IMG/VR virus record: IMGVR_UViG_3300017971_000190
Span: 124,001-188,000 of that record
Source: a virus
Length of the DNA: 64,000 bases
Direction: 5' to 3' (one strand)
Part shown: positions 70 through 59,463 of the stretch, one piece after another
How the letters are laid out: each line of letters starts with the position of its first letter
Numbering within the stretch: the stretch's first letter is position 1
The notes under the pieces: generated by a model
What the model was told of the DNA's origin: nothing
Databases searched by the model: none
The model's input: only the letters and a program-made list of their open reading frames with translations
Translations under genes and position numbers: made by a program

Positions 70-249
70 ATGCCTGTGCCACAACCAAAAACAAAATGGA
101 GACCTCTTCACCTTTTTACTCGTAATATGACATGTTGGTACTATAGAAAACTTAACTCAGAAATATTTGACCCTATGTTTCAATTGTGGCAGAGATATCA
201 AAATAAAGTTGAAAAACTGATGATTTTAGGACAGTTAAATTTAAAATGA
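70..249 (+). CDS. small hypothetical protein, 59 aa
   Basis: ATG at 70 and TGA at 247-249. The stop overlaps the ATG of the next gene (ATGA), which points to translational coupling. The protein is basic and aromatic (KWRPLHLF near residue 9, TCWYYRKL near 21, then an amphipathic C-terminal stretch). I do not recognise a family. Its place directly ahead of the Ntn-hydrolase gene is the only context. Confidence 0.5.
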   Translation: MPVPQPKTKWRPLHLFTRNMTCWYYRKLNSEIFDPMFQLWQRYQNKVEKLMILGQLNLK

Positions 250-17648: not shown

Positions 17649-17990
17649 TTACAGTCTTGAGATTAATTCTTTACGATCGTACATAAGAAGATCTTGTAAC
17701 ATAGCAGTCATAAATTCGTATAGTTCTCTAGCAATAGTTTGCCCAAAATTTGTTGGTTCGTCATATTCATCAAATATGACATTCAACATTTCTTCATCAT
17801 CAGTAAAATATTCATCAAATATTTTATTGTAAATCATTTTGTCAAACGAAGTGGTATCTTTTATAGTATAAAAATCCTTAATAAGAAGTTGAAAAAGTTG
17901 CAATCTTTCTTCTACGCCTAGTTGTAAAAGTAAATCAACAGCAACTTCAGTTGGACTTTGCGCTAAAGCAAATCGCCTTCTACGCCTCAT
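17649..17990 (-). CDS. tagged protein, 113 aa
   Basis: Starts MRRRRRFALAQSPTEVA. The mature part is hydrophobic/helical then acidic (LLLQLGVEERLQLFQLLIKD, YFTDDEEMLNVIFDEYDEP). The ATG lies inside the end of the upstream gene (11-base overlap). No known family. Confidence 0.5.
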   Translation of the reverse strand: MRRRRRFALAQSPTEVAVDLLLQLGVEERLQLFQLLIKDFYTIKDTTSFDKMIYNKIFDEYFTDDEEMLNVIFDEYDEPTNFGQTIARELYEFMTAMLQDLLMYDRKELISRL

Positions 17991-20111: not shown

Positions 20112-20483
20112 CTAAGCGCCCACAGCACTTTTTAGTTCTCTGATTTTTCTGGCTGCATAGGTCTTAGCCCCGTAGCGCCAAAGCAGCCTTAATTCCTGTT
20201 TCAGTGTCTGTCTATCACTTACTACCATTTTTAAAATAGCATATATTTTATTGGTAATAACAGCAGGTTTCATTTTTGCAAGTTCTTCTTTAGACCCTAT
20301 ATTGGCTTTAATAAGAACTAAAGCCAAACCAAGTACCAGTGACAAACTAAGAAAGGATATGTTTTGTTCAATAACTTGGAGGAACAGAGTTTCAACATCT
20401 TTTTGACTAGGCGGTTCTGTCCCTTCTTGCTGCTGCTGTTCTTCATCCCCTTCAGCAGCTTTTTTAAACCGTCTTACTTTCAT
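20112..20483 (-). CDS. tagged membrane-segment protein, 123 aa
   Basis: I take the ATG at 20481-20483, which overlaps the upstream TGA and puts MKVRRFKKAAEG at the N terminus. An ATG 4 codons earlier is possible. A Gln/Glu-rich linker is followed by one hydrophobic helix (FLSLSLVLGLALVLIKANI) and a basic C terminus. A membrane helix behind a virion-type tag could suit a protein that enters the host envelope during DNA ejection (inference). Confidence 0.5.
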   Translation of the reverse strand: MKVRRFKKAAEGDEEQQQQEGTEPPSQKDVETLFLQVIEQNISFLSLSLVLGLALVLIKANIGSKEELAKMKPAVITNKIYAILKMVVSDRQTLKQELRLLWRYGAKTYAARKIRELKSAVGA

Positions 20484-21811
20484 TTTATTTTCCAATTTTT
20501 GTGAAGAGAGGAGAATTTACGCTGACTGGCCAGCCAACGCTTTTTCGTTGTAGGGTCTCCCAAATCTGGAATTAAAATGTCATTTCCATCTTTGAGACTG
20601 GGAGGAACAAATCCTTCTTTCAAAAGCTTTTTCAATTTAGCTGCTCCCTTATTTTTTTGAGGAGCAGCTTTCTTTTTTAGAATTTTAGCCACTCGTCCAT
20701 AAGGGATTATTTCAGCAGGAGCTTTAGTGGGGCGAAACAATACAGCTGTTTCGTTAGTGTGATTAGCCACAATAATTTTAGAACAAGAGCTGTTGGCAAT
20801 AACTGCAAAATGGTCATCTTCAAAAGTGTCAGGAATATTCTCTACTGCCCAAATAATGCTAGCTTCTTTCAGAAATTGAGAATTGACTTCTTTTACAGAA
20901 CCACCTCTTTTACTGATTTGAATTGCTTGCTCTTGTTTGCGCGCGTGTTCTTCATCAGGGTGACGCCCTAATAATTTAGTAGGATCTTTTTTGCTGTAGA
21001 GACAAACCCGTTGTTCACTCTTAGGACGTTTTGGGTCAATATCTTTTTGTCTACAAGGTTTAATAGTAGCAATTCTTGGTCTTCTAAAACGTTTCACTCT
21101 TGCCTCCTTTTCACCCGTAGGCAAAGATTCATCATCTAAAGCCAACATAAGGTCACTAGCATCTTCTAACAGTTCAGGAACTATATCTTCGTGTTCTCCT
21201 GGTAAATCTTCCAAGTCTCTCAAAATTTCAATGGCTTCATTTACTTTTTCAGCAGCCTCACCAAATTGTTCTTCCACCGTAACACTCAGTCTAACTTTAG
21301 GAAAGTCTGGACTGTGAATATAATCTACTTCGTAAGGTTTAACCAATTTTTCAATTTCAAACAATTGATCTGGGTCAATGTAAGTAGAACCAAAAGTTCT
21401 AATTGAAATACCGTAATCCCCAGAGGGTAAATTGGCAATTCCAAGGACTGTGTTAGGAGGAATAAATGGAGTATGTTTTAATTCTTTAATTAGTTTTTTA
21501 ATTTCCCATTGCTCAGGACTAAAAGCTAAACGAGCTTCTTTTTTAGCTTCCTCTTCAACACCTAAATCTTTTTCCATTTTTGCCAGACCAATATAGTAGT
21601 CTGGACTTTCCATAAGATGAACCCAAGCTATTTTACCTGTTAGATTTGGATCATCTTTAGTAACATTAACACGTTCATCTACTTTAGAACCGTGTTCCAG
21701 TTCAACTTCTAAACCTTTTAAAAATTCTTCAGCTGGAAAAGGACTGGTGTCCCAATCAATTCCAATATCTTCTCCAATTTTAATTGCATCTTCAAGAGTG
21801 AAAGTAAGCAT
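20480..21811 (-). CDS. DUF5661-domain fusion protein, 443 aa
   Basis: Residues 4-85 match DUF5661: FTLEDAIKIGEDIGIDWDTS, VELEHGSKVDERVNVTKDDP and GKIAWVHLMESPDYY. A tag-like KRFRRPRIAT (about 240-249) separates a second module with CLYSKKDPTKLLGRHPDEEH, a short motif I have seen in other phage multidomain proteins. The C terminus is Lys-rich. DUF5661 has no known function. The fusion around a basic-Ala junction follows the pattern of the block. Confidence 0.65.
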   Translation of the reverse strand: MLTFTLEDAIKIGEDIGIDWDTSPFPAEEFLKGLEVELEHGSKVDERVNVTKDDPNLTGKIAWVHLMESPDYYIGLAKMEKDLGVEEEAKKEARLAFSPEQWEIKKLIKELKHTPFIPPNTVLGIANLPSGDYGISIRTFGSTYIDPDQLFEIEKLVKPYEVDYIHSPDFPKVRLSVTVEEQFGEAAEKVNEAIEILRDLEDLPGEHEDIVPELLEDASDLMLALDDESLPTGEKEARVKRFRRPRIATIKPCRQKDIDPKRPKSEQRVCLYSKKDPTKLLGRHPDEEHARKQEQAIQISKRGGSVKEVNSQFLKEASIIWAVENIPDTFEDDHFAVIANSSCSKIIVANHTNETAVLFRPTKAPAEIIPYGRVAKILKKKAAPQKNKGAAKLKKLLKEGFVPPSLKDGNDILIPDLGDPTTKKRWLASQRKFSSLHKNWKIK

Positions 21812-22171: not shown

Positions 22172-23311
22172 CTACGGCTGGCGAATACCCTTCGAAACCG
22201 AACGGGAGTTGGCTACCGTGAGCGCCTCATGCTGGTACAGGAACCAACCGCGACGAGCACGACCAATAACCGCCTGGTTGATGACTTCCGACTTAAGCGA
22301 AACCATCATCGATTTGGTACCCAAAGCCTGCGGAGCACCGAGGAAGTAAACTTCACCGTCGTCAAGCACCTTCAACGTCGGGTAACGGAAACCGTCCGTC
22401 AGAAGCTCAACATCACCAAGTTTACCAAGGCGTCCCTCCATGGCGAGTTCATGCTTCTCGATAGGAGAGTACCAGCTCTGCCAATCTGTATCAGCAAAAA
22501 GGTCATTCATAATATCGATAGCAATAATCGCGTGAGGAACGCTGATGCCCTGGCTAACCACTTGCGTCTTCAGCTGCGTGAAAGCCGTAGGTGTGAAGTT
22601 CGCAAACAATAGAATGTCGTTCGGAGCCTGTGCAGCGTTGTCCAAGAGGTACTTGAGGGTACGGTCTTCACGAGTAAGAGTAGCCTCAACAGCATCCTGA
22701 TACTTCTCTTCGAGGATCTGAGCACCAGCCTCGAAAATTTCCTTCTCCCGCATGATAACGTTAGCTTCGATCTCGAAACCATCCGGGAAAATCCAACCCT
22801 GCTTGACAACGGATTCAGCTACCGTACCGTCATCAACCATGACCCACGCAACAACATCCTTACGATGGATACGTACACGTGCAATACCACCCTCTTTGAC
22901 ATCCTGGTGAGCCAGAATTTTGTCAGCGAAAGCAGTACGACCCATGGTTTCATAGATGTCATCGGAAAATACTTCACCGAGTACTTGCCAAGGACCATCC
23001 GGCTCCATGGTGTTTTTGGACTCAAACGCGGCTTTGACGAGGTGCCCGTCAGAAAGCCAGTCGTCCATATGGTTAGGAGTAGGAGCAGTAGGAGTTAACT
23101 CACCGCTACGCAGCTGCGTAACGAGAGATTCCATGGTCTCCCACAATTCCTTTTTATTGCTGGCGTTGTACTCACCAGTACGCTCATCGATCAGCGGTGT
23201 AGTAGCCGACGTAATGATTTTACCGGAACGCGGGTTCCGCTTCATCATGTAACCAGCTTCCTCAACAGAGGCACCACGACGATCTAGGAGGGTGTTTTTT
23301 CCGTAAGGCAT
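22172..23311 (-). CDS. probable major capsid protein
   Basis: 379 aa, with features expected of an HK97-fold capsid subunit. A polar N-terminal arm (with GASVEEAG after DRR), a long helix rich in Glu (EKEIFEAGAQILEEKYQDAV), a beta-rich domain and a C-terminal region with EVYFLGAPQALGT. Codon choice is visibly richer in C and G at third positions than neighbouring genes, as is usual for the most abundant virion protein. It is flanked by a good terminator and an abundant-looking neighbour. The fold assignment rests on context and composition, not on a catalytic motif. Confidence 0.7.
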   Translation of the reverse strand: MPYGKNTLLDRRGASVEEAGYMMKRNPRSGKIITSATTPLIDERTGEYNASNKKELWETMESLVTQLRSGELTPTAPTPNHMDDWLSDGHLVKAAFESKNTMEPDGPWQVLGEVFSDDIYETMGRTAFADKILAHQDVKEGGIARVRIHRKDVVAWVMVDDGTVAESVVKQGWIFPDGFEIEANVIMREKEIFEAGAQILEEKYQDAVEATLTREDRTLKYLLDNAAQAPNDILLFANFTPTAFTQLKTQVVSQGISVPHAIIAIDIMNDLFADTDWQSWYSPIEKHELAMEGRLGKLGDVELLTDGFRYPTLKVLDDGEVYFLGAPQALGTKSMMVSLKSEVINQAVIGRARRGWFLYQHEALTVANSRSVSKGIRQP

Positions 23312-23341: not shown

Positions 23342-24148
23342 CTACACGTTGAATTCGATACCGAGGTACGGGTCGCCCGGCTCGGGTGCCTTAAAGACAC
23401 GACCACCCGGAAGAAGAGTACCTGCGACTTCGAGTACCGCGGTAGAAACCTTGCCGTCAGCGCCAAGCACCGGTTGATCACCAGCTACGACACTATCGAC
23501 AACCCAGTTAGCCCGAGCATCGTACATCATCGTGTAGATGTAGCAATGCTTGACGCCAACACTCATAATCCCGAAGAGAGACTCACAACCACGGTTGGGG
23601 CCACTCTCGCGTAGATACATATCACGTTCTTGAGCGGTAAGATTCCACCTGTACGTGACAATAATATCTACAGCAGCATCAGCAACGTTGAACGTCATAA
23701 TGCCAGTAGCGTAATCGATTTCTACTACACCAGCACCTGCAGGCGGAACACCAGGAGCATTAATTGTAAACGCTACACCAGTTGCAGCGTAAACAACTCT
23801 TGCTTCTGCAACAGCAGGAGCACCACCGTCATCCAGCATATTAACGATGCCGAGATTAATGGTGGGAGCAGCTACGTTCGGAATTGTGAGTTCCGCACAC
23901 GCAGCCCAAATATAGCCTTCAATCGCGCTAAACTGAGCAACACCAGCGAAAATTTCGTCGGCAGCACCCGTGCACGGAGAGACTACTTCCTCATTGTTAC
24001 CACCGTCAGCTTTTACGAGGAAAGTACCCTCGTTGACGATGTTGGCACCAGTGGCGATTGTGTACTGCAGCTTGTCCCCGTAACGACTACGAGTATAGTC
24101 CTGCATTTCAAATCCGCCAGCGCCAGGTTGAACGTCTTTCATACCCAT
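23342..24148 (-). CDS. probable head decoration or second abundant capsid protein
   Basis: 268 aa, Ala/Gly/Val-rich and beta-type throughout (GVVEIDYATGIMTFNVADAA), with the same C/G-ending codon preference as the adjacent capsid gene. AAAAGGAG lies ahead of the ATG. The pairing with the capsid gene under a long leader suggests stoichiometric co-expression. Decoration protein is inferred from position and composition; no family is recognised. Confidence 0.55.
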   Translation of the reverse strand: MGMKDVQPGAGGFEMQDYTRSRYGDKLQYTIATGANIVNEGTFLVKADGGNNEEVVSPCTGAADEIFAGVAQFSAIEGYIWAACAELTIPNVAAPTINLGIVNMLDDGGAPAVAEARVVYAATGVAFTINAPGVPPAGAGVVEIDYATGIMTFNVADAAVDIIVTYRWNLTAQERDMYLRESGPNRGCESLFGIMSVGVKHCYIYTMMYDARANWVVDSVVAGDQPVLGADGKVSTAVLEVAGTLLPGGRVFKAPEPGDPYLGIEFNV

Positions 24149-31968: not shown

Positions 31969-33117
31969 TTACTTTTTACAACTGCTAAACAAAGCTGCTA
32001 CCTGATCGTCACTTAGAGGGCTCGGCTGACCCTTGACTTTCCAACCATCCTTATTTCGCTCGAAACTAACAGCATCATTTCCTGTGCAAGGCATTCCAAA
32101 ATAATCACACAAACATTTTTGACTTATGGAAAATTTCTTAGGTGTCTTTTTAGCCGTTTTAACTTTAGCATTTCTACCTTTCAAATCTATAGGTTTATGA
32201 CTGCATTTTAGTAAATTTACCAGGTAGGCTTTTCTCAACTCGTGATCTAGAACAATCCATTGGTGAGCTTCTTTATCAAACTGTTCAGCGGTTACACGTT
32301 TACTACCGTTAGCTTCTACTTCTTTGATAGCTTCAGCTGCGTAATTAACAGCTCCTCCAGCTGTGTTTGGATAAATACAACCATTACCCATTTTTGTACT
32401 GGCGTTTGTTTTAACGTTAATTGTACCACCACCCATATCTACTGATTCAAACTGCTTCTTAGTTTTAAAAATCCAATCTTTGAATTTCTTAGCAGCTTCA
32501 TCACTTTGTTTAACAAGAGGATTGTACTGAGCAACTAATTTAGCAGGTAACTCCACTCCTACAGTAATTGCTGTGAAAGGATTAGCAGCCACATTTTGTT
32601 GAGCTTCTTTAACTGTTTTACAATGGTCTAAAAGAGGAGTAACAAACTGATTGTAGAATTGTTTGGCAAATTTTTTAGTGACAGGTAGAACAGCCAGTTG
32701 TTTAATGAATTCTTCTTGCTTCAAAACCTCATTGTAAGAGGGATCAATTTCTACTTTGGGAGCCTGAAGAGCAGTTCTCTTAAAAGAGGCTTCTTTCTGG
32801 TTTTGTACCCACTTTAGCATTTCACTTTGGGTGTAGTTTGAGGGTTTAACAAGTGCTTTGTAAGTAGCAACAACAGTATCTGGTAGACCTAATGACCACA
32901 TAGCAACTTCAACAGGATCTGAATTGAGTTTTTTACCAGCAGTGTCTACTTGATTACATAGTTGCAGTAGAGCAGACCCATAATAATCAATGATGGTTTT
33001 GGCGTGTTTAACGAAAGTTTGATCCTCTTTAAAAGCTTTAAGCTTTTCAGAAGACAGACCTTCAAATGCTTTGGAGAGATCAAGTTCTTGAGCTATTCTC
33101 AATTTTCTAATTTTCAC
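31969..33117 (-). CDS. tagged virion-block protein, 382 aa
   Basis: N terminus MKIRKLRIAQELDLSKAF has the basic-Ala tag. A second one, ASFKRTALQAPKVEID, occurs near residue 110. The rest is helical, with a Gly/Asn-rich patch (VDMGGGTINVKTNAST) and a Lys-rich, Cys-containing C terminus (FSISQKCLCDYFGMPCTG). No family recognised. Confidence 0.5.
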   Translation of the reverse strand: MKIRKLRIAQELDLSKAFEGLSSEKLKAFKEDQTFVKHAKTIIDYYGSALLQLCNQVDTAGKKLNSDPVEVAMWSLGLPDTVVATYKALVKPSNYTQSEMLKWVQNQKEASFKRTALQAPKVEIDPSYNEVLKQEEFIKQLAVLPVTKKFAKQFYNQFVTPLLDHCKTVKEAQQNVAANPFTAITVGVELPAKLVAQYNPLVKQSDEAAKKFKDWIFKTKKQFESVDMGGGTINVKTNASTKMGNGCIYPNTAGGAVNYAAEAIKEVEANGSKRVTAEQFDKEAHQWIVLDHELRKAYLVNLLKCSHKPIDLKGRNAKVKTAKKTPKKFSISQKCLCDYFGMPCTGNDAVSFERNKDGWKVKGQPSPLSDDQVAALFSSCKK

Positions 33118-44012: not shown

Positions 44013-44282
44013 TTAGTCTCCGTAAACACCCACCAAACGATACTCGGTTATGGTTACTAAATTACCGTGATAAAGAAGATCGTTTTTCCTACCTGTTGGT
44101 TCTGCCTCTAAGCCGTAGCCTTGATTTTCACCAAAATAATTTTCATCAAACCAGATCACACTTTGAAGCTCTCTTGCAACACTGTAAGGGTCTTCCAATT
44201 CATCTTCTTTAACCCAAAAGGTTGTTCCTTCAGATAAACGAGCTTTTGTAGCTGCTACTCTACGGCGTCTTCGTTTTAGCAT
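44013..44282 (-). CDS. tagged small protein, 89 aa
   Basis: MLKRRRRRVAATKARLSEGT, then a domain of about 70 residues (VARELQSVIWFDENYFGENQ; NLVTITEYRLVGVYGD). TAGGAG precedes the ATG. A free-standing example of the tagged modules seen in the polyproteins. Confidence 0.55.
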   Translation of the reverse strand: MLKRRRRRVAATKARLSEGTTFWVKEDELEDPYSVARELQSVIWFDENYFGENQGYGLEAEPTGRKNDLLYHGNLVTITEYRLVGVYGD

Positions 44283-44309: not shown

Positions 44310-44663
44310 TTATGGCATATCTAAGTACGCCCAACCTTTACTATCAAGTTCGTCTTCTATTTCTTTTTGTGAAAGGATTAACCCTTCTCTGCTTCCAACA
44401 TCACGTAGTAGTTGTTTTAAATCCGTTATTGGTTGTTCTCCAGACCACTTAACCTTAAAGTTTTCTTCATCGCCTAAATCTGTATGACTAAAAATTGCCG
44501 CTATGCCAATAGCATCGTCAATTGCTTCTTGTAGTTGTCTTGAGTTTATCGCTACTATTTCAAATACGTAAGGTTTAGATTTATCTTTCGAGGTAAATAC
44601 TTCTAAATAAGTGTAAACATATGTATATTCAGCAGCCATTCTGCGTCGTCTTCGTCTTAACAT
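44310..44663 (-). CDS. tagged small protein, 117 aa
   Basis: MLRRRRRRMAAEYTYVYTYL is nearly identical in its first 11 residues to the next tagged protein downstream. The body is alpha/beta (YLEVFTSKDKSKPYVFEIVA). AAAGGAGACAGTGCC precedes the ATG. No family. Confidence 0.55.
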   Translation of the reverse strand: MLRRRRRRMAAEYTYVYTYLEVFTSKDKSKPYVFEIVAINSRQLQEAIDDAIGIAAIFSHTDLGDEENFKVKWSGEQPITDLKQLLRDVGSREGLILSQKEIEDELDSKGWAYLDMP

Positions 44664-46912: not shown

Positions 46913-49900
46913 TTAGCTTCTACGGCGACGAGCAAAAACGCCTACGCCGGGAATTTTCAGTTTTGCAGGGGGAATTGTTTTAGTTTCGTAGCGATTTAAA
47001 CGAGCTTTACGATTTGAAGCGCTGTAACTGTGCTCAACAGGTTCCACCTCGTCTAAACGCACACCTTGCACTATCTCATTGGTTTCTGGATTAAAAAGAA
47101 CAAGTAAAATACCTTCAGGAGCACCACTTTCAGCATCGGCATCATAATACTGCCAAATATCACCATCATAGTAAAATTGTTTTCCAACTTCAATACCAGC
47201 AATATCTCTTCCATAAGATTTATAGAGGTGTATGTCTTCTTTAACTCTAGCTACATCCTGATCATTTAAAACATGACGAAGGTAAGGAGCTGCTTTTCTT
47301 TTTCTCACCGAAGCAAACCTACCTTCTTCAAACTGTTTCACTAATTTTCTCAGTTCCCCAGTTAAAATAGCGGTAGTTTCGTGTTTGTCTCCACGACCAA
47401 TAATACGCGGTTTAACGTTCCAAATAAATTGTTCCAACTCTGGTCCTGGATTACGTTTTAAATCAACACCAATGATCATATCAAAACCACGAGGAAGACG
47501 GTTGTTAAATGCTTCTCCGTAAACAACGTCGTCCATGGCTTCTAAAAAATAAGCCCAGCCACGTTTGTACTCTGTATTGTAGTGGTTTAAAATCTTCTCG
47601 GCTAAGTCATAGTAGTAATCAGCCTGTTTAATTCTAGTCTTACCTGTGGTGGGAGGCAATTTGTAGAGAGGTTTAGATTTTAGGCCAAACTCGGGATCAA
47701 TATCAATGCGTTTACTGGCAAAGGTGTCTGATGCTATAGCTTCAGCTACCTCAAAAGTGGGAAGATTATCCCAAGCATTGCCATTATAAGTTTCGGTAAA
47801 CATTTCGCTACCTGCTTCTTCTCCATGCTCTTCTACCAATTCATCATAGTGTTCTCTATAATGCTCAAAATTCCACATTTCTAAAGTTTCAAAAGCTTGC
47901 TGAATACAACTTTCAGCACTTTCATAACTGTCCACTACTACAGCTGCAGCGGGATTAAATCCGCTACCATCGTGAACAATGGCTACGTTGACAGTTTCAG
48001 AATCGGGATCAAGATAACCTTCTCCGTCTACCACTGAAACCCCTTTTAACATGGACTTAAATTGTTCTAGATCACCCCTAGCTGTACGTTTTCTAGTTTT
48101 AGCCGTTGCAGCAAAAACTCCCGGAAAAAGCCTTCTAGCACGGTCGTTATCCATTACACTAATGTGCCAGGAACCATGGTCTGGAAGACGCGACGTACTC
48201 CACGGTGCGTTCTTTTCATGACTAAGAGCGTCTTCAGCCCAAACACTGACAGTAGGCCCTTGAAGAAAAACAGCGTAGTCGCCACGAGTGGTCACTTTAC
48301 CAGGAAATTGGCTGAAAATGCGTTTCAAAAGGGGGATGGGATCTCGTCCGTCATCCCAGGCAAAATCTACACGGTAAGTACCGTACTGAGGACCGTCAAA
48401 ATAAGCCCTTACAGGTTGAGGACCACTGAGGTGACTAACACCTCTAAAATCAAAATCGTTGAGATCAGCTGCAATTTGATCAGCTGTGGTTCTAATTTCT
48501 TCCAGGTTAGCTTGGCGTTTACGGTATCTCATTGATTTACCCTTTGTCAAGAGTGGGTTTTTAGACCCCACACTCATTGTGTCTTCGAGGAAGATGGTTA
48601 CCCAATTTTTAAATAAATCTAGTTCAGAATATCTTTCGTTTTCTAGTTTATCATTGCGTAGGCTACTATCTTTGGGATCCCAAAACCAACCTGTACCATC
48701 ATTAAGAAGATACCCTTCTACAGCCGTTCCTACGTTGACAGCAATTTTGTTTGAATCAACTTGCTGAAACTTAACAGTTGGATATTCTATTTCTTGGAAA
48801 CGTTTTACCAATTCCTTAGTCATTTCGTCTCTTGGTTTAATAGGAACAATATCAGTCTTAACTCCGCTTTCTCTAGCAGCGTCGTAGACAGCAGAGTCAA
48901 AGTGGGAGAGTTCTTCCTCACTTAAAAATTCTCCATCACTACGTTCAATAAGTGCAGTGGTAATAAACATTTTAGAAGAGCTGCTATCAAATAATACTAA
49001 AGAATCGTCAACAACTTGAGTTTCATATGGCTTACTCCAACCGACGTTAGGCTCAGTGACTAGAGGCATGGAAGCTATGGCAAAGTCAACAGCAGCTGGA
49101 AAAGAGGAAAAAGTCTGCTTGTCTTTTTGCCCCTCTTGCTCAACTCTGTATTTGTCTTCAGACCATTGGGTATAAGTAACAGTTACGGTGTAAGTAGGCT
49201 CATAGTCACTTTTCCTAATTTTCATGTTGCCCAACCTTTTGTAATCTGAGGGCTCAAAAACCCGTTCTCCGGTTTTGTCCGGAAGTAAACTAGAGTACCA
49301 CTCTGGCTCTAGTTTGTACATGCGACCCTTACTGGTTTTTAAATTTCTAGCAATTGGTACACTGCGTACAATAGGATTGGTAGTAATAAAGTATTCTAAT
49401 TTAATAGGAGTTTTTCTACTAAATGAAGTATATTCCATGCGACCGTTAAAACGGTCTAAATCTTCTTGAGCACCATAAGAGCGACAAACTAAAATCCAAG
49501 TACCATCTTTAATAATGACATTTACTGCTTTATTTAATGGTTTACCCGCATCCATGGTTTGTTTGCCAATGTCTTCACTAAGGGGTACATCTAAACCAAG
49601 ACCGCGAAGTCTTTTTACTTCAGAACGGAAGTGGGCACCATGTTGATCTCGTTCCCACCTATCTTCTCCACTTTGCATGAACTTAACGTGTATTAATTCA
49701 TGCCCTAAAATGCCAAGAAATGTCTCTCTGTCTAAATCGTAACGGTTGCTAATTTCCAGGCTCGTAACTTTGGTTTCTCCAGTGTTACGATTACGTCTTC
49801 CTTTTACTAAACCGTACTGGCGGTAGAACCGACCGTACTTGAAATGGAAACTTAAACTGAGTTCACCATTAAAGTACTTACGGTTCAGCTCTTCAGCTTC

Positions 49901-50005
49901 TCTTTTTAAATTGAAGCGTTCCCAGTCTTTTTTAGCGTAGCGGTTAAACACTTGCTTAGAACTTTTTACGAGGTAACGGTACTTCCAGCTCACCACCAGA
50001 GGCAA
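46913..50005 (-). CDS. SprT-like metalloprotease polyprotein, about 1030 aa
   Basis: The N-terminal domain has LNRKYFNGELS and GILGHELIHVKFMQ with HGAHF 16 residues on. This is the SprT-like zinc site (HExxH plus a downstream His) near residues 102-125. The start is unsure: TTG at 50005 overlaps the upstream gene by 50 bases, while GTG at 49949-49951 follows its stop. Modules continue after NMKIRKSDYEPTYTV (ATG 49223-49225 with AAAGG), SMRYRKRQANLEE (ATG 48530-48532 with AAAGGG), KTRKRTARGDLEQF, KTRIKQADYYYD, SVRKRKAAPYLRH and SNRKARLNRY. Other modules are unrecognised. Confidence 0.62.
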   Translation of the reverse strand: MPLVVSWKYRYLVKSSKQVFNRYAKKDWERFNLKREAEELNRKYFNGELSLSFHFKYGRFYRQYGLVKGRRNRNTGETKVTSLEISNRYDLDRETFLGILGHELIHVKFMQSGEDRWERDQHGAHFRSEVKRLRGLGLDVPLSEDIGKQTMDAGKPLNKAVNVIIKDGTWILVCRSYGAQEDLDRFNGRMEYTSFSRKTPIKLEYFITTNPIVRSVPIARNLKTSKGRMYKLEPEWYSSLLPDKTGERVFEPSDYKRLGNMKIRKSDYEPTYTVTVTYTQWSEDKYRVEQEGQKDKQTFSSFPAAVDFAIASMPLVTEPNVGWSKPYETQVVDDSLVLFDSSSSKMFITTALIERSDGEFLSEEELSHFDSAVYDAARESGVKTDIVPIKPRDEMTKELVKRFQEIEYPTVKFQQVDSNKIAVNVGTAVEGYLLNDGTGWFWDPKDSSLRNDKLENERYSELDLFKNWVTIFLEDTMSVGSKNPLLTKGKSMRYRKRQANLEEIRTTADQIAADLNDFDFRGVSHLSGPQPVRAYFDGPQYGTYRVDFAWDDGRDPIPLLKRIFSQFPGKVTTRGDYAVFLQGPTVSVWAEDALSHEKNAPWSTSRLPDHGSWHISVMDNDRARRLFPGVFAATAKTRKRTARGDLEQFKSMLKGVSVVDGEGYLDPDSETVNVAIVHDGSGFNPAAAVVVDSYESAESCIQQAFETLEMWNFEHYREHYDELVEEHGEEAGSEMFTETYNGNAWDNLPTFEVAEAIASDTFASKRIDIDPEFGLKSKPLYKLPPTTGKTRIKQADYYYDLAEKILNHYNTEYKRGWAYFLEAMDDVVYGEAFNNRLPRGFDMIIGVDLKRNPGPELEQFIWNVKPRIIGRGDKHETTAILTGELRKLVKQFEEGRFASVRKRKAAPYLRHVLNDQDVARVKEDIHLYKSYGRDIAGIEVGKQFYYDGDIWQYYDADAESGAPEGILLVLFNPETNEIVQGVRLDEVEPVEHSYSASNRKARLNRYETKTIPPAKLKIPGVGVFARRRRS

Positions 50006-50248: not shown

Positions 50249-51100
50249 TTAACCGTGGATATAGCTACTTAAACTTGTAACATTTGCTTGGTCATTATTA
50301 GAAATTGCCGAATCCTCTATAAAATAGAGATCTCTTAAAATCTCCCAAACTATATAGTCACCAATAACTTGTCCTTTACCTTCTCCATTAGCTACATGTT
50401 CGCAGGTAACGCGCCCATCACTGATATAGCCACAATCTGGGAGACTACATTCTGTCTTCTCTACAAGACATCCCATACTATGACCAATTATTTCTCGTTT
50501 TTCTATTCGCTTAGCTAATTTAGAATCTTTGCTACGATCAAATCCTTTGAGTAACTTAACATGCGGTCTGCCCATAAAAGGAACCATAACAGCATCAAAA
50601 ATAGCGCCTTTAGCTTTAGTTGGATCTTGATTATCATGATCCTGATGCGCTGGTTTACCAATAAAAGTTTGGTAGGTCATTCTACTCATAGGTATTTTCC
50701 ACTTTAACATTTCGTCCATGGTAAATCCATCCATATTTCTATTTGGGTACCCAATAACAAGTGCGGGAGACTCTGTTATAATATAATCTGAGATTGATGG
50801 ACTACAATCATAAGCTTCACTAGCACTCTTCAACCAACTAATATCCAGAGTATCGCAGCTGCAATTTTTTAAATCTGCCCCAGCAACACGCAATTTTCCA
50901 CGGGGGTCTTTAAATTGCTCCAGTTTATGCCCTTCGATAATGAGAGGTTCAGGTACGTAAATCTGATTACGGGCATCGTACCGTTCTGCCACATAAGCAT
51001 CTCCCCGAACTACCATTCCTTCATAGTTGCCATCTTTATCGTAACTGGCATAGTGACCATCAACACGGGGTAGGCTTACATGACCGTTAATGTGAGGCAT
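50249..51100 (-). CDS. prohead maturation serine protease
   Basis: 283 aa. FIGKPAHQDHDN (147-157) carries the candidate catalytic His (H152 or H155) and GHSMGC (206-211) the nucleophile Ser208, in the order and spacing of phage capsid maturation proteases. A cysteine cluster (C211, C218, C223, C233 with H235) probably binds zinc and sets it apart from the HK97 type. AAAAGGAAAAG precedes the ATG. It lies between the core protein and the cargo genes and is the natural candidate for cutting the basic-Ala sites (inference). Its own cleavage specificity cannot be read from sequence. Confidence 0.8.
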   Translation of the reverse strand: MPHINGHVSLPRVDGHYASYDKDGNYEGMVVRGDAYVAERYDARNQIYVPEPLIIEGHKLEQFKDPRGKLRVAGADLKNCSCDTLDISWLKSASEAYDCSPSISDYIITESPALVIGYPNRNMDGFTMDEMLKWKIPMSRMTYQTFIGKPAHQDHDNQDPTKAKGAIFDAVMVPFMGRPHVKLLKGFDRSKDSKLAKRIEKREIIGHSMGCLVEKTECSLPDCGYISDGRVTCEHVANGEGKGQVIGDYIVWEILRDLYFIEDSAISNNDQANVTSLSSYIHG

Positions 51101-51210: not shown

Positions 51211-53049
51211 TTACTTACCCGTTTTACGTTTAAACGCATCGTAACCAACGGTAAGGGCGCTAGCAGTGCGATTAGAAAGACGACCCTTCATACGCTGACG
51301 CCAGTAATTGGGATCCCACTTCCTACCGCTAGCAGTACGTTCTTCTGTTTCATCAACAACAGGAGTACCATGACCTGTGGTAATGGGAACAGAGCGGGGC
51401 ATTTGCCTGTTTTGCTGGACGGAGGCGGCAACGGGAATTGCTTCTTCCTCAGCAGCGTAGCCGGGGTGACGCCATTCCATGCTAGCGATTTCAGCAGTGT
51501 GGTGAGCCATTACGTCTTGAGGTGCACCTAACAGCTCATCAGCTTTGTTAATAAGCATTTCGAGGTAGGAAGCCCCACTCTTACGGAAAGCGCCTTCTAT
51601 TTTATTAACACACGTATTGGTGTCAATACCAAGGCTGTTAAACTGGTTAACGAGAGCTTCTTTAAGAGCATTCTCACCCCAATAATTCTTAACAGAGCCT
51701 TCAGCGACAACAGCCATGATATTCATGAACTCGTCTTTGAGGTCTGCCAGGGTAGCACGGCGCTCAGCTTGAATTTCTTCAGCTAACTGAGCCCTAACCT
51801 CAGAAGCAATCTCGTTTTCGTAAGCAGCTGTGGCATAGAAACGAGCGTTTACACTTTTAAGAGTCTCCTCAACACCAAACGTAGTAAAGCCTTCTTTAAT
51901 GCGGTCAATGTAGCTCGGTTTGAAGAATAGACCCTTAAACTCATTAGTAAGGTCAGTGTCAGAAAGGTGAATTTCTGCTACCGGATGACCCATAGCGAAA
52001 ATAGCGTAGAGGGGGTCCTCTTTGAACAATTCGTAATTCTCGTCTTCAGGATTAACCCCAAAAGGAATGAAATCGAAACGAGCATTTTTAAGAGATTTTA
52101 AGTCACGTGTATTGTACACTCTCTCCATAAGAGGTTTACCAGCTTCTGTAGGACCACAACCCTCTTCGTCTTCAGCTCCACATTCTTTAGAAGAAGCTGT
52201 TTCACCCTCGCTCTCTTCTTCTCCCTCTTCGCCTTCTTTGCCCTCTTCTTCCTTTTCTTCTTCCTCTTCTTCTTCATCTTCCTCTTCACCATCTTCAACA
52301 GGAACACACTTCATTTCCTGTCCCTCAGGGCAGCCACCTTCTTCCTCTTCACCTTCCATACCCTCTTCTTCTTCAAGTTCGAGGCCCTCTAAATCTAAAT
52401 CATCTAGATTTAGATCTTCAAACTCGAATCCCATTTCCTCAGCAGGCTCGTCTTCATCTTCTTCCGCTTTGCGACGGCGGTCAAAAATGGGATGACGAGG
52501 TTTGTCTTCACTAAAACGACGGCGACGGCGACGAGAGAAAGGACTCTCATCATCTTCCTGTGCACGGCGACGGCGACGAGGAGAACGTAAGTCCTCATCA
52601 TCGAGATACAGGTTTTCAGAGGTCCGACTACGACGACGAGGAGGCGTTGGAAGCCGATCTGCTAAACGGGAGCGGCGAGTTCTACGTTTTCTAAGACTCA
52701 TGGTTCTTTTTCCTTTACCGGCAAAATTTGCGGTAGGTTGATTTATTGCTTGCTCGTCAATCAACTCTTCACTAAGAGAACCTGGTGAGGTTTTTTCATT
52801 AAGTAAGAGTCGATAAGCTTTTGGGTGTTTGAATTTAAGCATCTGCAATATTACGTCTGCACGTTCGGGATCTACTGCAGATACCTCTTTAATGAATTCT
52901 TTAAGGTCTAAGATAGCTAAATCTTCGGCTAGTTGATCACATTTTCGCCAAAGCTTGTTATCATCAACCTTTAAATGTGGTGACGGTGCTCTCGCACGGG
53001 GAGGTGGTATTTCACCTACCCTCTTTCTAATTTTCCTTTTTCTCGACAT
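51211..53049 (-). CDS. prohead core (scaffold) protein with multiple basic clusters
   Basis: Start chosen at MSRKRKIRKRVGEIPPPRA (53049), after TTAGGAGAAGAC. After a 120-residue helical part, an embedded AAAGGA and ATG (52699-52701) precede MSLRKRRTRRSRLADRLP and five basic clusters within about 85 residues (PPRRRSRTS, SPRRRRRAQ, SRRRRRRFS, DRRRKAE). A Glu/Asp tract of some 100 residues follows, then a helical C-terminal half. Acidic/helical composition and location next to the protease and portal match phage core proteins such as T4 gp22. The clusters resemble the cargo tags, suggesting a shared assembly or cleavage signal. Confidence 0.62.
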   Translation of the reverse strand: MSRKRKIRKRVGEIPPPRARAPSPHLKVDDNKLWRKCDQLAEDLAILDLKEFIKEVSAVDPERADVILQMLKFKHPKAYRLLLNEKTSPGSLSEELIDEQAINQPTANFAGKGKRTMSLRKRRTRRSRLADRLPTPPRRRSRTSENLYLDDEDLRSPRRRRRAQEDDESPFSRRRRRRFSEDKPRHPIFDRRRKAEEDEDEPAEEMGFEFEDLNLDDLDLEGLELEEEEGMEGEEEEGGCPEGQEMKCVPVEDGEEEDEEEEEEEKEEEGKEGEEGEEESEGETASSKECGAEDEEGCGPTEAGKPLMERVYNTRDLKSLKNARFDFIPFGVNPEDENYELFKEDPLYAIFAMGHPVAEIHLSDTDLTNEFKGLFFKPSYIDRIKEGFTTFGVEETLKSVNARFYATAAYENEIASEVRAQLAEEIQAERRATLADLKDEFMNIMAVVAEGSVKNYWGENALKEALVNQFNSLGIDTNTCVNKIEGAFRKSGASYLEMLINKADELLGAPQDVMAHHTAEIASMEWRHPGYAAEEEAIPVAASVQQNRQMPRSVPITTGHGTPVVDETEERTASGRKWDPNYWRQRMKGRLSNRTASALTVGYDAFKRKTGK

Positions 53050-53131: not shown

Positions 53132-53329
53132 TTATAGTAAAACTCCCAATTGTTTGAGAGCATTTCTTATTTTGTAATAAGGGCTATCAGCAAGTAATTT
53201 TTTTCGAGCTACATCTATTTTTTCATTGGTTGCTAAAACATGGAGAATTTCTGCTTGTTCTCCAATAAAATCCCAAAGGCGATCTTCTGTCGTCTTTGCT
53301 GTTACTTTTTTAACTCTTCGTACTCTCAC
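53132..53329 (-). CDS. tagged small protein, 65 aa
   Basis: MRVRRVKKVTAKTTEDRLWD starts with the tag. The remaining 50 residues are helical (FIGEQAEILHVLATNEKIDV). Six bases separate it from the next gene upstream. Possibly a core accessory protein by location. Confidence 0.5.
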   Translation of the reverse strand: MRVRRVKKVTAKTTEDRLWDFIGEQAEILHVLATNEKIDVARKKLLADSPYYKIRNALKQLGVLL

Positions 53330-53897: not shown

Positions 53898-54278
53898 CTA
53901 GTCAAAAGAAAGAGTAATTGGTTCTACAAGCTCTCCATCAGCTATATAAGCTCTAAATACAATAGGAGCTTCACCGAATTCGTCTAAAATAGAAAGTGGC
54001 CTACCTTCAGGAAACTTCAAAAAACCTTTAATGTTGAAACCAGATTCAGGTCCCCCATAGTCACTTTCCAATTCGGTCCCTATGAGAGTAACAGGAGTAC
54101 CGTATTGAGTTTGCAGCACTCTAATAATAAGCTGTTCAAATTCTTTCCAGTTGGCTTGAGGACTGTCTTCAAACTTGTCCACTAATTCTTCTTCAGTGGG
54201 GCCTTCTTCTGGAGGATCTTGTGCTATTTTAATTCTCTTGTAACGTAGAGAACCGATAGCTATATTTTCTTTTGACAT
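53898..54278 (-). CDS. tagged protein adjacent to portal, 126 aa
   Basis: MSKENIAIGSLRYKRIKIAQ contains the tag (RYKRIKIAQDPPEE) about 10 residues in. The body is alpha/beta (FEQLIIRVLQTQYGTPVTLI; FNIKGFLKFPEGRPLSILDE). Six bases downstream of the portal gene. No family. Confidence 0.5.
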   Translation of the reverse strand: MSKENIAIGSLRYKRIKIAQDPPEEGPTEEELVDKFEDSPQANWKEFEQLIIRVLQTQYGTPVTLIGTELESDYGGPESGFNIKGFLKFPEGRPLSILDEFGEAPIVFRAYIADGELVEPITLSFD

Positions 54279-54284
54279 GTGTTG

Positions 54285-56603
54285 TTAACCTAATTCATCT
54301 CTACGGACATACCCCGTAAGAGTTTTATTATGAGGAAGACTTCTCTCTCTATTAGAGAGAATGTTCCTAAATTGATCAACAGAAAGTGGCCTTATTTCAT
54401 TTTCATTGTGACCACTTAATCTAGCCAGGGCGACTAATTCATTAGCAATCGCTTTTGTCATTCTACCATTCATGCGGGTAGTAATATATTTACTGAGTAG
54501 ACTATAGATTTCAGAACTGAGTTCAACAGGAGGAATATAACCTAATCGTATAGCTATATAAAGTATGGATTGCGCTTGAATATCATTAAATCCTTCTTTG
54601 CGTAAGCCTTTATAAAGAGTAGAAGCTAATTTAATTCTTTCATCTTCGTGAGGATCTGTTTGAGCCACCTTGTAAAGTACTTGTGCAATACGTCTTTTTG
54701 GTAAAGAGAAAAATGTTTCATTTTCATCCCAAAGCGGAAGTTCACTCAATAAACCAATAATATCTTTTCCAAGTATTCGATAGTTAGATTTCTTAACACG
54801 ATGAGGAGCAGCGTAAACTTCTTTGGTCGGTTTTTTGGGTTCAACTGGAAAACGAGCATGGTCTAAAGCAGCTCCAGCACCTTCTTCACCAGCAGGCGCT
54901 TCGGCAGGGGGGGCAGGTTCTTCACCGAAACCACCCCCGGGTTCTTCACCGAAACCACCACCAGGTTCTTCTCCAAAATCAAATCCTTCTTCCTCTCCAA
55001 AACCACCACCACCTAAACCACCTTCTTCTCCTTCACCCCCAACGTAAGTATCGTTTTCATCAAAACCCATTTTAGTACGAAGTTCAGCAACAGCTCGTTT
55101 ATACTCGTACATTTTCTTACGAGTTTCTAAATCGCTTTTTGAATTTTCTAGTTCTTCATCAATATCTAAACCGCCTGCTTGGTAGAAGGTACGCATATTT
55201 AAAATGCCACCCTCTTCTTTAAGAGTGCGAAGAAGCTCCATATAAGCTTCATCACGAGTAGGAGTAAGAGGTCTACTCCACTCGATTTTGGGAATGATTA
55301 AATCACTAACAGCTTTATTTTTGGGTCTAGCGATTCTGTAACGGTGATTTATTTCTGCCGTTTTCCTTTTAACAAAATCTTCTTGTTCTGACAACTGACG
55401 ACACATTTTATCAATTATAATTTTTTTGGTAAAATAAGAACGAAGGTATTGTAGTTTTTCAATAAAGACCGTTCTAATGGTCTCCATACTATTCCAATTA
55501 CTTTCACCAGTAACCAGTGTTTCACTAACTCCTAAAGCCCTCATTTTTCCTTCAACAAGGAAAGGCCATTCGTCAGAGAATTTCCAGTAATCAGCAGAAC
55601 CACCACCAACACTGGTAACTTCAACATCTTTTTTGGTTACAACTTTAGCTCCAACTGGATCTTCTTCACTAGCGAAGAACAGATCTAACAATTCTTGAAG
55701 CTCTTCAGGAGTAGCTCCTTCAGGACCAGTAATATGAAGGAGGGGGCCAGCTCTACGACGAGCACCAGCAATAGATGCGTTATAAATAGCACTTTCATAA
55801 ACCTTAAAAATGAGAACTCTGTTAAGATAACTACTGCCTTTACAATCCCAAGAGAAAGCACGACGGGGAAGGAAAATAGTATTTTCAGGAGACAGCGGAA
55901 TCTGCTTTCCAGCTGCCATTAATTTAACAATTACTGGATCTATTTGAAGACGATCTTCCACCACTCGGGGGTCTTTAGACGTTGCCCAAGATCTTTGTTC
56001 AGCTGTTGGTTGAATATCGATAATGGCGTTCCCACCAGGAGTTTCAGGATACTGAATAGAAAGGAAATTCAAATTGTGCGCAATTACTCCATCCCAATAA
56101 TTAAGGCTATCGTTATAAAGCAGGTGAGCTACAAATTTACCAAAAGTAAGGAAGTCATGTAACAACTCTGGCATAAGAGGAATCATGCCACTAGAGTAAA
56201 GAGCATCTTCAAAAAATTGTTTTTGATAGGAATCAACTACACCGCTAACAATGATATCTTCAGAAAAAGCAAGATCTTTCCAGTATTCTAAAGTAGGACT
56301 AACAATTGGATCAAATGTAGCAATTTCCTCGTACATTTTATTCTGACTGGCGCTATCACCAGGAAGAAATTGCTCTCCTAAAGTAGGAGCTTCAGCGCGA
56401 TCTGTAACAGGGCTATATTCTTGATTTAAATTACCAGCAGCTGGGGTTAAAGAATTACCATAACCAAAACCGCCAACACCATAGCCTCTTCGTTGTATAG
56501 CTCCCAAACGCTTTTTACGTTGTGTGCTACTAGCTCCGATAGCTCTTCTAGAAGAGCCTCTTCGGAGTCTCCCTTTTGTAAGGTCATAACGGATGTTAAA
56601 CAT
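54285..56603 (-). CDS. portal protein
   Basis: 772 aa. Recognised by the overall portal pattern: an N-terminal region leading to LEYWKDLAFSEDIIVSG, a beta wing (NLNFLSIQYPETPGGNAIID), a hydrophobic stem/clip region (FLVEGKMRALGVSETLVTGE, then NWNSMETIRTVFIEKLQYLR) and a helical C terminus. The N terminus is basic (GRLRRGSSRRAIGASSTQRK), similar to the cargo tags. A Gly/Glu/Pro repeat region precedes the extra C-terminal 200 residues, which are unusual in portals and may be a fused domain. It lies between the terminase and protease genes. Confidence 0.8.
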   Translation of the reverse strand: MFNIRYDLTKGRLRRGSSRRAIGASSTQRKKRLGAIQRRGYGVGGFGYGNSLTPAAGNLNQEYSPVTDRAEAPTLGEQFLPGDSASQNKMYEEIATFDPIVSPTLEYWKDLAFSEDIIVSGVVDSYQKQFFEDALYSSGMIPLMPELLHDFLTFGKFVAHLLYNDSLNYWDGVIAHNLNFLSIQYPETPGGNAIIDIQPTAEQRSWATSKDPRVVEDRLQIDPVIVKLMAAGKQIPLSPENTIFLPRRAFSWDCKGSSYLNRVLIFKVYESAIYNASIAGARRRAGPLLHITGPEGATPEELQELLDLFFASEEDPVGAKVVTKKDVEVTSVGGGSADYWKFSDEWPFLVEGKMRALGVSETLVTGESNWNSMETIRTVFIEKLQYLRSYFTKKIIIDKMCRQLSEQEDFVKRKTAEINHRYRIARPKNKAVSDLIIPKIEWSRPLTPTRDEAYMELLRTLKEEGGILNMRTFYQAGGLDIDEELENSKSDLETRKKMYEYKRAVAELRTKMGFDENDTYVGGEGEEGGLGGGGFGEEEGFDFGEEPGGGFGEEPGGGFGEEPAPPAEAPAGEEGAGAALDHARFPVEPKKPTKEVYAAPHRVKKSNYRILGKDIIGLLSELPLWDENETFFSLPKRRIAQVLYKVAQTDPHEDERIKLASTLYKGLRKEGFNDIQAQSILYIAIRLGYIPPVELSSEIYSLLSKYITTRMNGRMTKAIANELVALARLSGHNENEIRPLSVDQFRNILSNRERSLPHNKTLTGYVRRDELG
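54916..54975 (-). repeat. 24-bp tandem repeat in the portal gene
   Basis: About two and a half copies of a 24-base unit encoding GEEPGGGF in succession. It forms a flexible acidic/glycine linker between the conserved portal body and its C-terminal extension. Confidence 0.65.
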
Positions 56604-57132: not shown

Positions 57133-59463
57133 TTAAAACCTTCCTCTGTTACCACCATTGTGGGATTGTCTTCTGGTTTGTTGTCGTCCTTGAGGGGAAC
57201 GTCCTCTGCCTGATCGTCTAGCTCTACCACCACCGTAAATATATTTAGGAATATTAAACATTCCTGCAATTGGTTTATTGGCTCTTTTAAACCCCATTGC
57301 TTCCATACCAGCTCTACGGTATTTGAAACGGCTTTTCTTTTCAAATTCCTTTTTGTAAGATTTTATAAATCTGTGGGCTAGAACTGTAGTTCTAAAAAGG
57401 TCATCATTGCCAATATCGGGTTTAAATAATTTACGATTAAAAACATTAACAGTAAGTATTTGAGCTAGACAGTGAGAACGAGGGTACATAGATCTCATCG
57501 CCAAATCTCTAGTTTTTAAAATAGAATCAATGTCGCTATCTTGAGTATTAAATCGTATCTTATTTCCGCCTAGGTCATGACGGAAATTTTTGAAATCGTT
57601 AAAAGTCAAGCTGTAACGTTCGCTAATTACGTTGTGTTTAGTTCTTAAATCATAAAAAGCATGAGCACTTTGCCAACGGTCATACGCTACATAGAGTACA
57701 TTGAATGAGTTAACAATAGGAACAATTACATTATCGTATGCCCAAGCTAAATCTACACTCATACCGTTTCTAGGAGCTACCTCCATTAACTCTTCAATGT
57801 ACGCACCATCCAACTCGGGAAGGTAACGAGCAAAAGTAAGAGCAAATGAATTCTTCTTTTCTCCGTTGTCAACAGCTAAAGCATAAGCATAGAGGTTGTT
57901 CTTTTTAGGAATTTTTACTTCTGGTTGAAGTGTTTGTAATCCTAAGTCGCTTTCATTTTCTTTTATGACGTAAGTAAAAGCTGGCTCTGGTTCGGTCATC
58001 TCATAAACTAAATCTTCTAGTAGAGTTTGATCTTTAAAAAACGGGTTACTTGCCTTTGGAGGAATAGCATAGAAATCACGGAGAATATCTTCTTCCGGTT
58101 CTCCTGCAAATTCGTCTCTGATTGCTTCTTCTGTTTGTTTAGGGTTAACTTCCCAGGTAGCAAAATGCGTATAGTAAATTCGAGGATTTTTAGCAGCCAC
58201 TTCAGCCCGTTGCATGATCGGGTCTCCGATAGAAGACGGGCTACTAATGTTTGCCATTATTGCGTCTATGGCATTATAATCTCCATTTTTACGTCTAATA
58301 TCTGCTGCTGCACGAAGTGTTCTTAAATTATTTGTAAGAGAACGGAAAATAGCCGAACCATCTCGTACTCTTCTTTTTCTACCTTGATCATCATAATTAA
58401 ACCATCCAAGCTCATCTATGATATTTATGAGACCTGTTTTTCCGCGAAGATTGGAACTGTTAGCTGCTGCCATAGAAAGAGCAAGACGTTTGCTAGGAAA
58501 GGTAAGAAATGTTTGCCCACTTTGAAAAAGATCTAAACCTAAACGTCTACCCTCATCTTTAAGGTAAGAGGCCACACTTTTAAACCAAGGACTACTGCGC
58601 AAAGCATCGCAAAACGGTACCCAAGAAAATTCGCTGCTCTGTTTGAGTGTAGGTGATACAAATGTACCACTCACAATTTTATTAGCAGGCTCATCAAAAT
58701 AAGCCATTGGATTTTCAAGGGCAAGATAACGATGAATATGGTATGTAGCTACAAATGTAGAAGCACTGTGACTTTTACCGCTCCGCTGTCCCCAAATAGA
58801 GCACAGTTCATTAGGAGGTACAGGTCTTAATCTGGAAAGTGCATAATCTCCGTAATCATTATATTTGTGGAATTTTGGATCCACAATCCATTCCTGCAAC
58901 ATCTCTGTTCTGTTACGTTTGCAGACAGGACAAACACCATGTTCTAAAAGAACAAAACGCTCCATAAGCTCGCCATAATTAGCATCTACTGGAACGTCAA
59001 AAATATAATCTAAATCTGAACAACTATAACAAGCATCTCTATTAAAATGAACAACTACTTGAAATTGTTTTGCATAAGGTTTAGTAGAACTGTTTAAAAA
59101 AGAGGGACTAATAATCCAATCTATAATGTTAGACGCTTCTGGGAATTTTTGGTCTGCAAAAACTCCCATATCAAAATTAGAGTCAATAGCTTTCTCAATT
59201 AAATCTTCCGGATTAGGTAATTTGTCAGGATCTGAAGGAAGGGAGTCAAAATTAACTACATCGTAAACAACATTGAAAAAGTCAATTTCTTCTATTGTAG
59301 GAGTAGGTAACTCGGTAGTAATTAATTCTGCGACTAATGGTGATTTCTTTTTCTTTTTACGACGTTTTTTCTTTTTTGTTTTAGTCTTGTCCTTTTTAGA
59401 TGCACTTTTGGGCATCTCCTGAACAGCATTGATTTTAGGAGAAAGGAAATCTACTTTTTTCAT
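57133..59463 (-). CDS. terminase large subunit (packaging ATPase/nuclease)
   Basis: 776 aa. Walker A GQRSGKS (225-231), Walker B INIIDE (346-351) with catalytic Glu, and a nuclease domain opening with YALAVDNGE (527-535), whose Asp is expected to bind metal. The N terminus has a Lys-rich tract (KTKTKKKKRRKKKKK) and an inserted zinc site (C145, C148, C178, C181) ahead of the ATPase. A C-terminal Gly/Arg-rich tail (GGGRARRSGRGRSP, RRQSHNGGNRGRF) may bind DNA. Powers DNA translocation into the prohead and cuts the concatemer. Confidence 0.9.
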   Translation of the reverse strand: MKKVDFLSPKINAVQEMPKSASKKDKTKTKKKKRRKKKKKSPLVAELITTELPTPTIEEIDFFNVVYDVVNFDSLPSDPDKLPNPEDLIEKAIDSNFDMGVFADQKFPEASNIIDWIISPSFLNSSTKPYAKQFQVVVHFNRDACYSCSDLDYIFDVPVDANYGELMERFVLLEHGVCPVCKRNRTEMLQEWIVDPKFHKYNDYGDYALSRLRPVPPNELCSIWGQRSGKSHSASTFVATYHIHRYLALENPMAYFDEPANKIVSGTFVSPTLKQSSEFSWVPFCDALRSSPWFKSVASYLKDEGRRLGLDLFQSGQTFLTFPSKRLALSMAAANSSNLRGKTGLINIIDELGWFNYDDQGRKRRVRDGSAIFRSLTNNLRTLRAAADIRRKNGDYNAIDAIMANISSPSSIGDPIMQRAEVAAKNPRIYYTHFATWEVNPKQTEEAIRDEFAGEPEEDILRDFYAIPPKASNPFFKDQTLLEDLVYEMTEPEPAFTYVIKENESDLGLQTLQPEVKIPKKNNLYAYALAVDNGEKKNSFALTFARYLPELDGAYIEELMEVAPRNGMSVDLAWAYDNVIVPIVNSFNVLYVAYDRWQSAHAFYDLRTKHNVISERYSLTFNDFKNFRHDLGGNKIRFNTQDSDIDSILKTRDLAMRSMYPRSHCLAQILTVNVFNRKLFKPDIGNDDLFRTTVLAHRFIKSYKKEFEKKSRFKYRRAGMEAMGFKRANKPIAGMFNIPKYIYGGGRARRSGRGRSPQGRQQTRRQSHNGGNRGRF

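Follow-up and report, generated by a model that had tools for sequence, protein, structure and literature searches.

The stretch of DNA analysed here (the window, 64,000 nucleotides) is part of a 221,679-base virus record and belongs to a jumbo myophage. Its genes and features are given in window coordinates and lie on the minus strand unless another strand is stated. The terminase large subunit (57133..59463; phrog_17415, E=2.8e-94), the portal protein (54285..56603; phrog_16240, E=8.4e-73), the putative core protein (51211..53049), the head maturation protease (50249..51100; phrog_18299, E=2.3e-38), the counterpart of the PaBG virion protein gp81 (23342..24148) and the major capsid protein (MCP; 22172..23311; 28% identity to PaBG gp80, E=1e-49) form the order terminase-portal-core-protease-gp81-MCP, which is common to the near relatives; there, as here, the core gene adjoins the protease gene and lies between those of the portal and the MCP. 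The terminase, portal and protease are of the PaBG/JA29/Motura/KoPa kind, with approximately 26-39% identity, and the MCP is PaBG-like. The near relatives are five IMG/VR loci with approximately 50% protease identity, L049 (G001), L050 (G002), L051 (G003), L052 (G004) and L053 (G005); scans of viral contigs with the terminase and of bacterial genomes with the MCP found no relatives. The neighbourhood of the core gene recurs, rearranged, in PaBG, JA29, Motura, Lu11 and HRDY3, where the core homologue adjoins the genes of a gp81-like virion protein and the MCP; the maturation protease gene is also close by in JA29, Motura, Lu11 and HRDY3. A second MCP-related protein (25% identical to the capsid protein of G001, E=6.6e-25), perhaps a vertex protein, is encoded away from the head module and outside the window, at G000:C1:204937-206025(+).

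The protease has the gp21/assemblin fold of T4 gp21. The top three matches of its model, which was built from 21 sequences, among solved structures are all T4 gp21 (5jbl, chains B, A and C; probabilities 0.99, 0.99 and 0.89; E 4e-3 to 8e-3), and the putative catalytic residues His155 and Ser208 are invariant in 21/21 sequences. The protease profile gave no match among the sequences of solved structures, the link being one of fold comparison only. Because of the predicted gp21 fold and the two invariant residues, a T4-like maturation step is likely. The PaBG capsid protein sheds approximately 20% of its mass at maturation (PMC7412058). A protein of 1030 residues (46913-50005) has a SprT-like N-terminal part (E=6.3e-5) and several tag-like junctions; SprT-like proteins are likewise encoded in the head region of PaBG and in that of Motura.

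The core protein belongs to phrog_20988, as a divergent member. Its last 302 residues, taken without the acidic tract, match this family (E=3.5e-11, over residues 60-241), as do PaBG gp82, JA29 gp132 and Motura gp186. It shares 31-38% identity with its near relatives, which are found down to E=1e-51, and an HMM made from them detects the core protein in 71 ORFs, which include 51 distinct ones. A BLASTP comparison with PaBG gp82 gave no match, and the link to that protein runs through profiles and near relatives only. The three named homologues and their Lu11 and HRDY3 counterparts are annotated as 'ATPase'. The label is apparently wrong, since a Walker A motif is absent here and from 70 of the 71 family ORFs, the remaining one having it, and no match to an ATPase fold was obtained; the membership of phrog_20988 is not in doubt. 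Searches of Pfam, PDB sequences and PDB folds showed no similarity to the T4 core proteins. The list of 14 virion bands of PaBG includes gp80, gp81 and gp83 and leaves out the core orthologue gp82 (PMC7412058), an absence that is weak evidence for a scaffold role. Taken together with the place of the gene and the anatomy of the protein, it makes ORF 51211-53049 most likely a prohead core or scaffold protein.

The protein comprises 612 residues, numbered from the ATG at 53049; the open frame reaches a TTG 10 codons further upstream, and the Shine-Dalgarno sequence belongs to the ATG. An N-terminal domain of 116 residues (52702..53049), with a basic start, RKRKIRKR (residues 3-10), as a sixth basic segment, matched only itself in a phmmer search over the fetched loci. 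It precedes five Arg-rich clusters, which span residues 120-194. Cluster 1 (RKRRTRRSR, residues 120-128; 52666..52692) is followed by LA, cluster 3 (RRRRR, residues 158-162; 52564..52578) by A-QEDDE, and cluster 5 (DRRRKA, 52465..52482, with RRRK at residues 191-194) abuts the acidic tract, so that an Ala stands within two residues after each of these, as in many cargo tags. No Ala follows cluster 2 (PPRRRSR, residues 136-142; 52624..52644) or cluster 4 (RRRRRR, residues 173-178; 52516..52533), which continues with FSED; an Ala after the cluster is a tendency rather than a rule. In the protein, four 6-residue windows have at least four Arg, whereas 5000 shuffles of it averaged 0.28 such windows and reached 3 at most.

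The acidic tract (residues 194-300; 52150..52470) holds 56 D/E and 5 K/R in 107 residues. Its best 100-residue window (197-296) has 55 D/E; in the same shuffles the count averaged 29.8 and never exceeded 40. Within the tract lies the Cys pair of CPEGQEMKCVP, the counterpart of CPxGCxP in the near relatives. The conserved C-terminal domain (P0001; 51211..52119) is modelled as a helix of 47 residues with additional helices and a small beta part. The pLDDT is mostly 75-95 over residues 10-215, with an overall pTM of 0.42; among viral models, its own family is the only clear match of the model, and it has no match among the solved structures of the PDB.

The cores of G005 and G004 also open with an Arg-rich stretch, which is followed by a DLNLDDIL-like acidic segment and the CPxGCxP pair, and those of G001 and G003 have SFSERLRLA and SFADRLRMA, respectively, ahead of the acidic part; these align with cluster 5, in an alignment that is weak around the clusters, where the sequence is of low complexity. 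Such similarities suggest that a basic segment ahead of the acidic tract is ancient, perhaps with a basic-x-Ala site, and has taken the form of pure Arg runs in this lineage.

An ATG embedded in the frame at residue 117 (52699..52701) could start a short form of 496 residues. Its anti-SD energy of -5.6 kcal/mol equals the median of the module starts (-5.6) and may be compared with -7.3 for the start at 53049 and -1.8 kcal/mol for other internal ATGs. The cores of G004 and G005 start at or past approximately this point in the alignment, and T4 gp21 is known to have a second start codon, Met45 (PMC9026906). A short form of the core is plausible. A general class of internal starts at the ATGs of internal tags was considered and dropped, the signal (p=0.039 only) being confounded by purine-rich Lys/Arg codons and two mis-called starts. 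The first-pass annotation had described this ORF as a core protein with five clusters like the cargo tags, an acidic tract of about 100 residues and an embedded start. Clusters, tract and embedded start are all confirmed, the first two beyond chance, and identity as a core protein is likely; the clusters differ in that 1, 3 and 5 have the Ala seen after many cargo tags and 2 and 4 lack it.

The same annotation had noted that many head-module proteins share a tag, and this also holds. Of the runs of three or more Arg, 37 fall in the head module (17,438 residues) and 14 in the other ORFs (52,830 residues), a concentration that makes the likeness of the core clusters to the module tags real. RRRR occurs in 13 head-module proteins, compared with 0.7 occurrences in shuffles, and unbiased counts against within-protein shuffles place RRRR, RRRxA, RRxRxA and MxRRR at the top of the head-module patterns. 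Of 87 basic clusters in the module, 35 have an Ala one or two positions further on, as do 10 of the 116 outside it (p=1.1e-7); part of this enrichment could come from helix or linker composition. An N-terminal basic tag that ends in Ala is carried by 16 of the 54 module proteins (shuffles: mean 4.8, maximum 10) and by 18 of 279 elsewhere.

Examples of such N-tagged proteins, presumably cargo, begin with MLRRRRRRMA-AEYTY (44310..44663), MLKRRRRRVA-ATKAR (44013..44282), MRRRRRFA-LAQSP (17649..17990) and MKIRKLRIA-QELDL (31969..33117). A small protein upstream of the core (53132..53329) starts with MRVRRVKKVTA-KTTEDRLW and, by its position and an alignment made by eye, matches LVYKGSRYRLA-ITEEGKLW of G003; a homology between this protein and the N-terminal domain of the core was rejected at 0.3 bits. 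Tags also occur in the interior of proteins. In a mosaic cargo protein (20480..21811) the internal tag KRFRRPRIA stands ahead of a domain that in G004 is a separate gene, starting with MKKVAIIKPC, which suggests that internal tags can mark module borders. A protein of 300 residues (16721-17623) has five Arg clusters that flank a domain (residues 117-247) 51% identical to a G005 protein. A cleavage between Ala and Ser ahead of the tags was also considered; it is not claimed, because the module shows no enrichment of TAS (6 occurrences, 3.7 in shuffles) and AS is rare ahead of internal tags (4/28 here, 3/11 in G003). In G005, AS precedes three internal YKG tags (KAASVFMYKG, KKASSMLTYKG and RNASNVLKYKG), a pattern that is weak in other genomes.

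The relatives have tags of other kinds in the corresponding region. In G003, [VIL]x[YFV][KR]GxxYxx[AV] is present in approximately 20 copies at the N-termini, in the interior and at the C-termini of head-module proteins, with Ala in 9/22 and Val in 9/22 at the third position past the Tyr. YKG-type tags are found at several places in G005 and make up most of its cargo tags, and in Motura MxIQAxxRL opens eight proteins, seven of which have Ala two residues past RL; look-alikes of the Motura tag occur in L069 and L112. From G003, G005 and Motura it follows that the type of tag changes while the core, protease and capsid proteins stay homologous. The replacement can be seen within one orthologue pair: the protein encoded at 53898..54278 has LRYKRIKIA-QDPPEE and its G001 orthologue LPVNKIVVA-QDPPEE, with A-QDPPEE kept and the residues ahead of it changed. 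Two other candidates were rejected: 'ETA' repeats of KoPa-5, spotted by eye, did not stand out in an enrichment test, and the apparent Arg-richness of the loci L094, L069 and L112 stems largely from spurious frames in contigs of 58-63% GC. Outside the head module of G003, four adjacent genes (contig positions 312082-313728, minus strand) have a common N-terminus like MKIRTGFVSNSSSSSF; the motif MKIRTGFVSNSSSSSF was not found in the present phage.

It had been proposed in the first-pass annotation that the acidic tract is the partner that Arg-rich tags should have in the core, that is, an electrostatic receptor, and that the core's own Arg clusters mimic or compete with the cargo tags. Oppositely charged sequences of such kind can associate by charge; core and presumed cargo do carry strong opposite charges, and the core clusters adjoin the tract. 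However, in a set of 48 homologous loci, the D/E count of the most acidic 100-residue stretch of each core ranges from 22 to 78 (median 52), and this acidity shows no correlation with the density of Arg runs in neighbour proteins (Spearman rho -0.09, p 0.53), in a test made coarse by spurious frames from GC-rich contigs, some of which entered the neighbour counts. The individual cases of Dickeya and G003 hold independently of it. The most acidic cores, of the Erwinia/Dickeya type (75-78 D/E per 100 residues), lie in loci with 1-3 Arg runs, and the tract is kept in homologues that have non-Arg tags or no recognised cargo tag, among them G003, G005 and Motura with their YKG or IQA tags. The Arg-rich core segment need not be a mimic either, since G005 has it along with cargo tags largely of the YKG type. 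The tract is better regarded as an ancestral trait of the family than as a special receptor for Arg tags; the idea that it exists in order to bind them finds no support, although the tract may add a local contribution. We consider the receptor explanation quite unlikely.

The Arg clusters could instead be basic patches of internal head proteins that bind DNA or RNA and condense the genome in the manner of protamines. Internal proteins of T4-related phages have been described as basic (PMC9026906), and the clusters here are near-pure Arg, with up to five in a single protein (that of 16721-17623). Such a role would nevertheless be difficult to reconcile with the uncharged or mixed tags of relatives in the same genomic region, or with an orthologue that sheds most of its basic residues yet keeps A-QDPPEE; it also leaves the position of the Ala without a role, and a scaffold that exits the head before DNA enters should need no DNA-binding patches. 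This makes the explanation unlikely. That the clusters are merely compositional, a functionless product of CGN codon-repeat expansion or drift of low-complexity linkers, is very improbable: the codons do favour it, in that CGT/CGC account for 23 of the 27 Arg codons of the core cluster region while AGA is the commonest Arg codon of the window, but the clusters are concentrated in one module, at N-termini and junctions and with an Ala bias, and the corresponding region of Motura and of G003 has recurrent tags that are different but no less strong. A more elaborate scheme is that of a lineage tag code, in which each lineage of this group of jumbo phages marks at least a dozen head proteins, at N-termini and the borders of mosaic modules, with a tag of its own (Arg run plus Ala, YKGxxYRLA or IQAxxRLxA) but retains a homologous scaffold and protease, and in which, in the present phage, the Arg tags also condense with the Arg/Glu-rich scaffold into an electrostatic, cargo-recruiting core. 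As a whole, this scheme is unlikely.

The reading that we favour, with a probability of roughly 0.58, is that ORF 51211-53049 is the main prohead core protein of the phage, a working equivalent of T4 gp22, and that its Arg clusters and those of the head-module proteins are lineage-specific capsid-targeting sequences that end in the cleavage site of a gp21-type protease. The C-terminal helical domain and the acidic tract would be the ancestral parts of the scaffold, and the C-terminal end of the Arg tags, a basic residue with Ala at about +1 to +2, would be where the gp21-type protease of the neighbouring gene cuts. Tagged proteins would enter the core by means of the tag; the shell would then close, after which the protease would cut behind the Ala of the tags and at similar sites of the core, the fragments would exit, and DNA would then enter. 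In T4, the capsid-targeting sequence (CTS) has 10 residues, of which separate ones govern targeting and processing, the core proteins are cut to pieces by gp21, and gp21 cuts after Glu (PMC9026906). The SPN3US protease gp245 also cuts after Glu, at AxE (PMC10052503, PMC5694885). Homologous proteases of giant phages vary in specificity (PMC5694885), and tags that change with the lineage fit this variation. A T4-like prohead core with capsid-targeting sequences, here in a variant form, is the best reading of the locus.

Comparison with the closest known systems brings out both the likeness and the divergence. PaBG gp82 has the homologous C-terminal domain, an acidic tract and the place beside the gp81 and MCP genes; it differs from the present core in having CxxC pairs on the N-terminal side of the tract and in lacking Arg clusters. 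With the T4 gp22 core (and its gp67, gp68 and gp21) the locus shares a core gene near those of the portal, protease and capsid, a gp21-fold protease and an expected fragmentation of the core, whereas the core protein here has no detectable link in sequence or fold to solved structures. The CTS of T4 IPI-III and Alt is likewise a short N-terminal sequence common to otherwise unrelated internal proteins and presumed to end in a processing site (PMC9026906). The sequences are unrelated, however: T4 is cleaved at L/IxE, in place of the Arg run plus Ala seen here, and the present tags are also internal, at module junctions, and differ in type among related phages. The head propeptides of SPN3US and phiKZ resemble the present system in a processed set of head proteins, multiple cuts per propeptide and a protease specificity that varies among relatives (PMC10052503, PMC5694885), but several of them exceed 100 residues and have Glu at P1, in contrast to the short tags and presumed P1 Ala of the present phage.

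A scaffold counterpart in giant phages had previously been unconfirmed (PMC5694885), and the family described here, which comprises about 50 distinct ORFs of IMG/VR, is a strong candidate for that role. The lineage tags offer a route, from sequence only, to list the likely packaged proteins of jumbo phages and to predict their maturation cuts; if they do target proteins, they would be novel packaging signals beyond the T4 CTS.

Two further genes of the window lie on the plus strand. The product of 246-824 is Ntn-hydrolase/proteasome-like (Pfam Proteasome, E=2.6e-4, just under the curated cut-off), and a similar-looking protein is encoded at 300955-301548 of G003. The product of 2241-2900 is a polysaccharide deacetylase (Pfam, E=2.8e-19).
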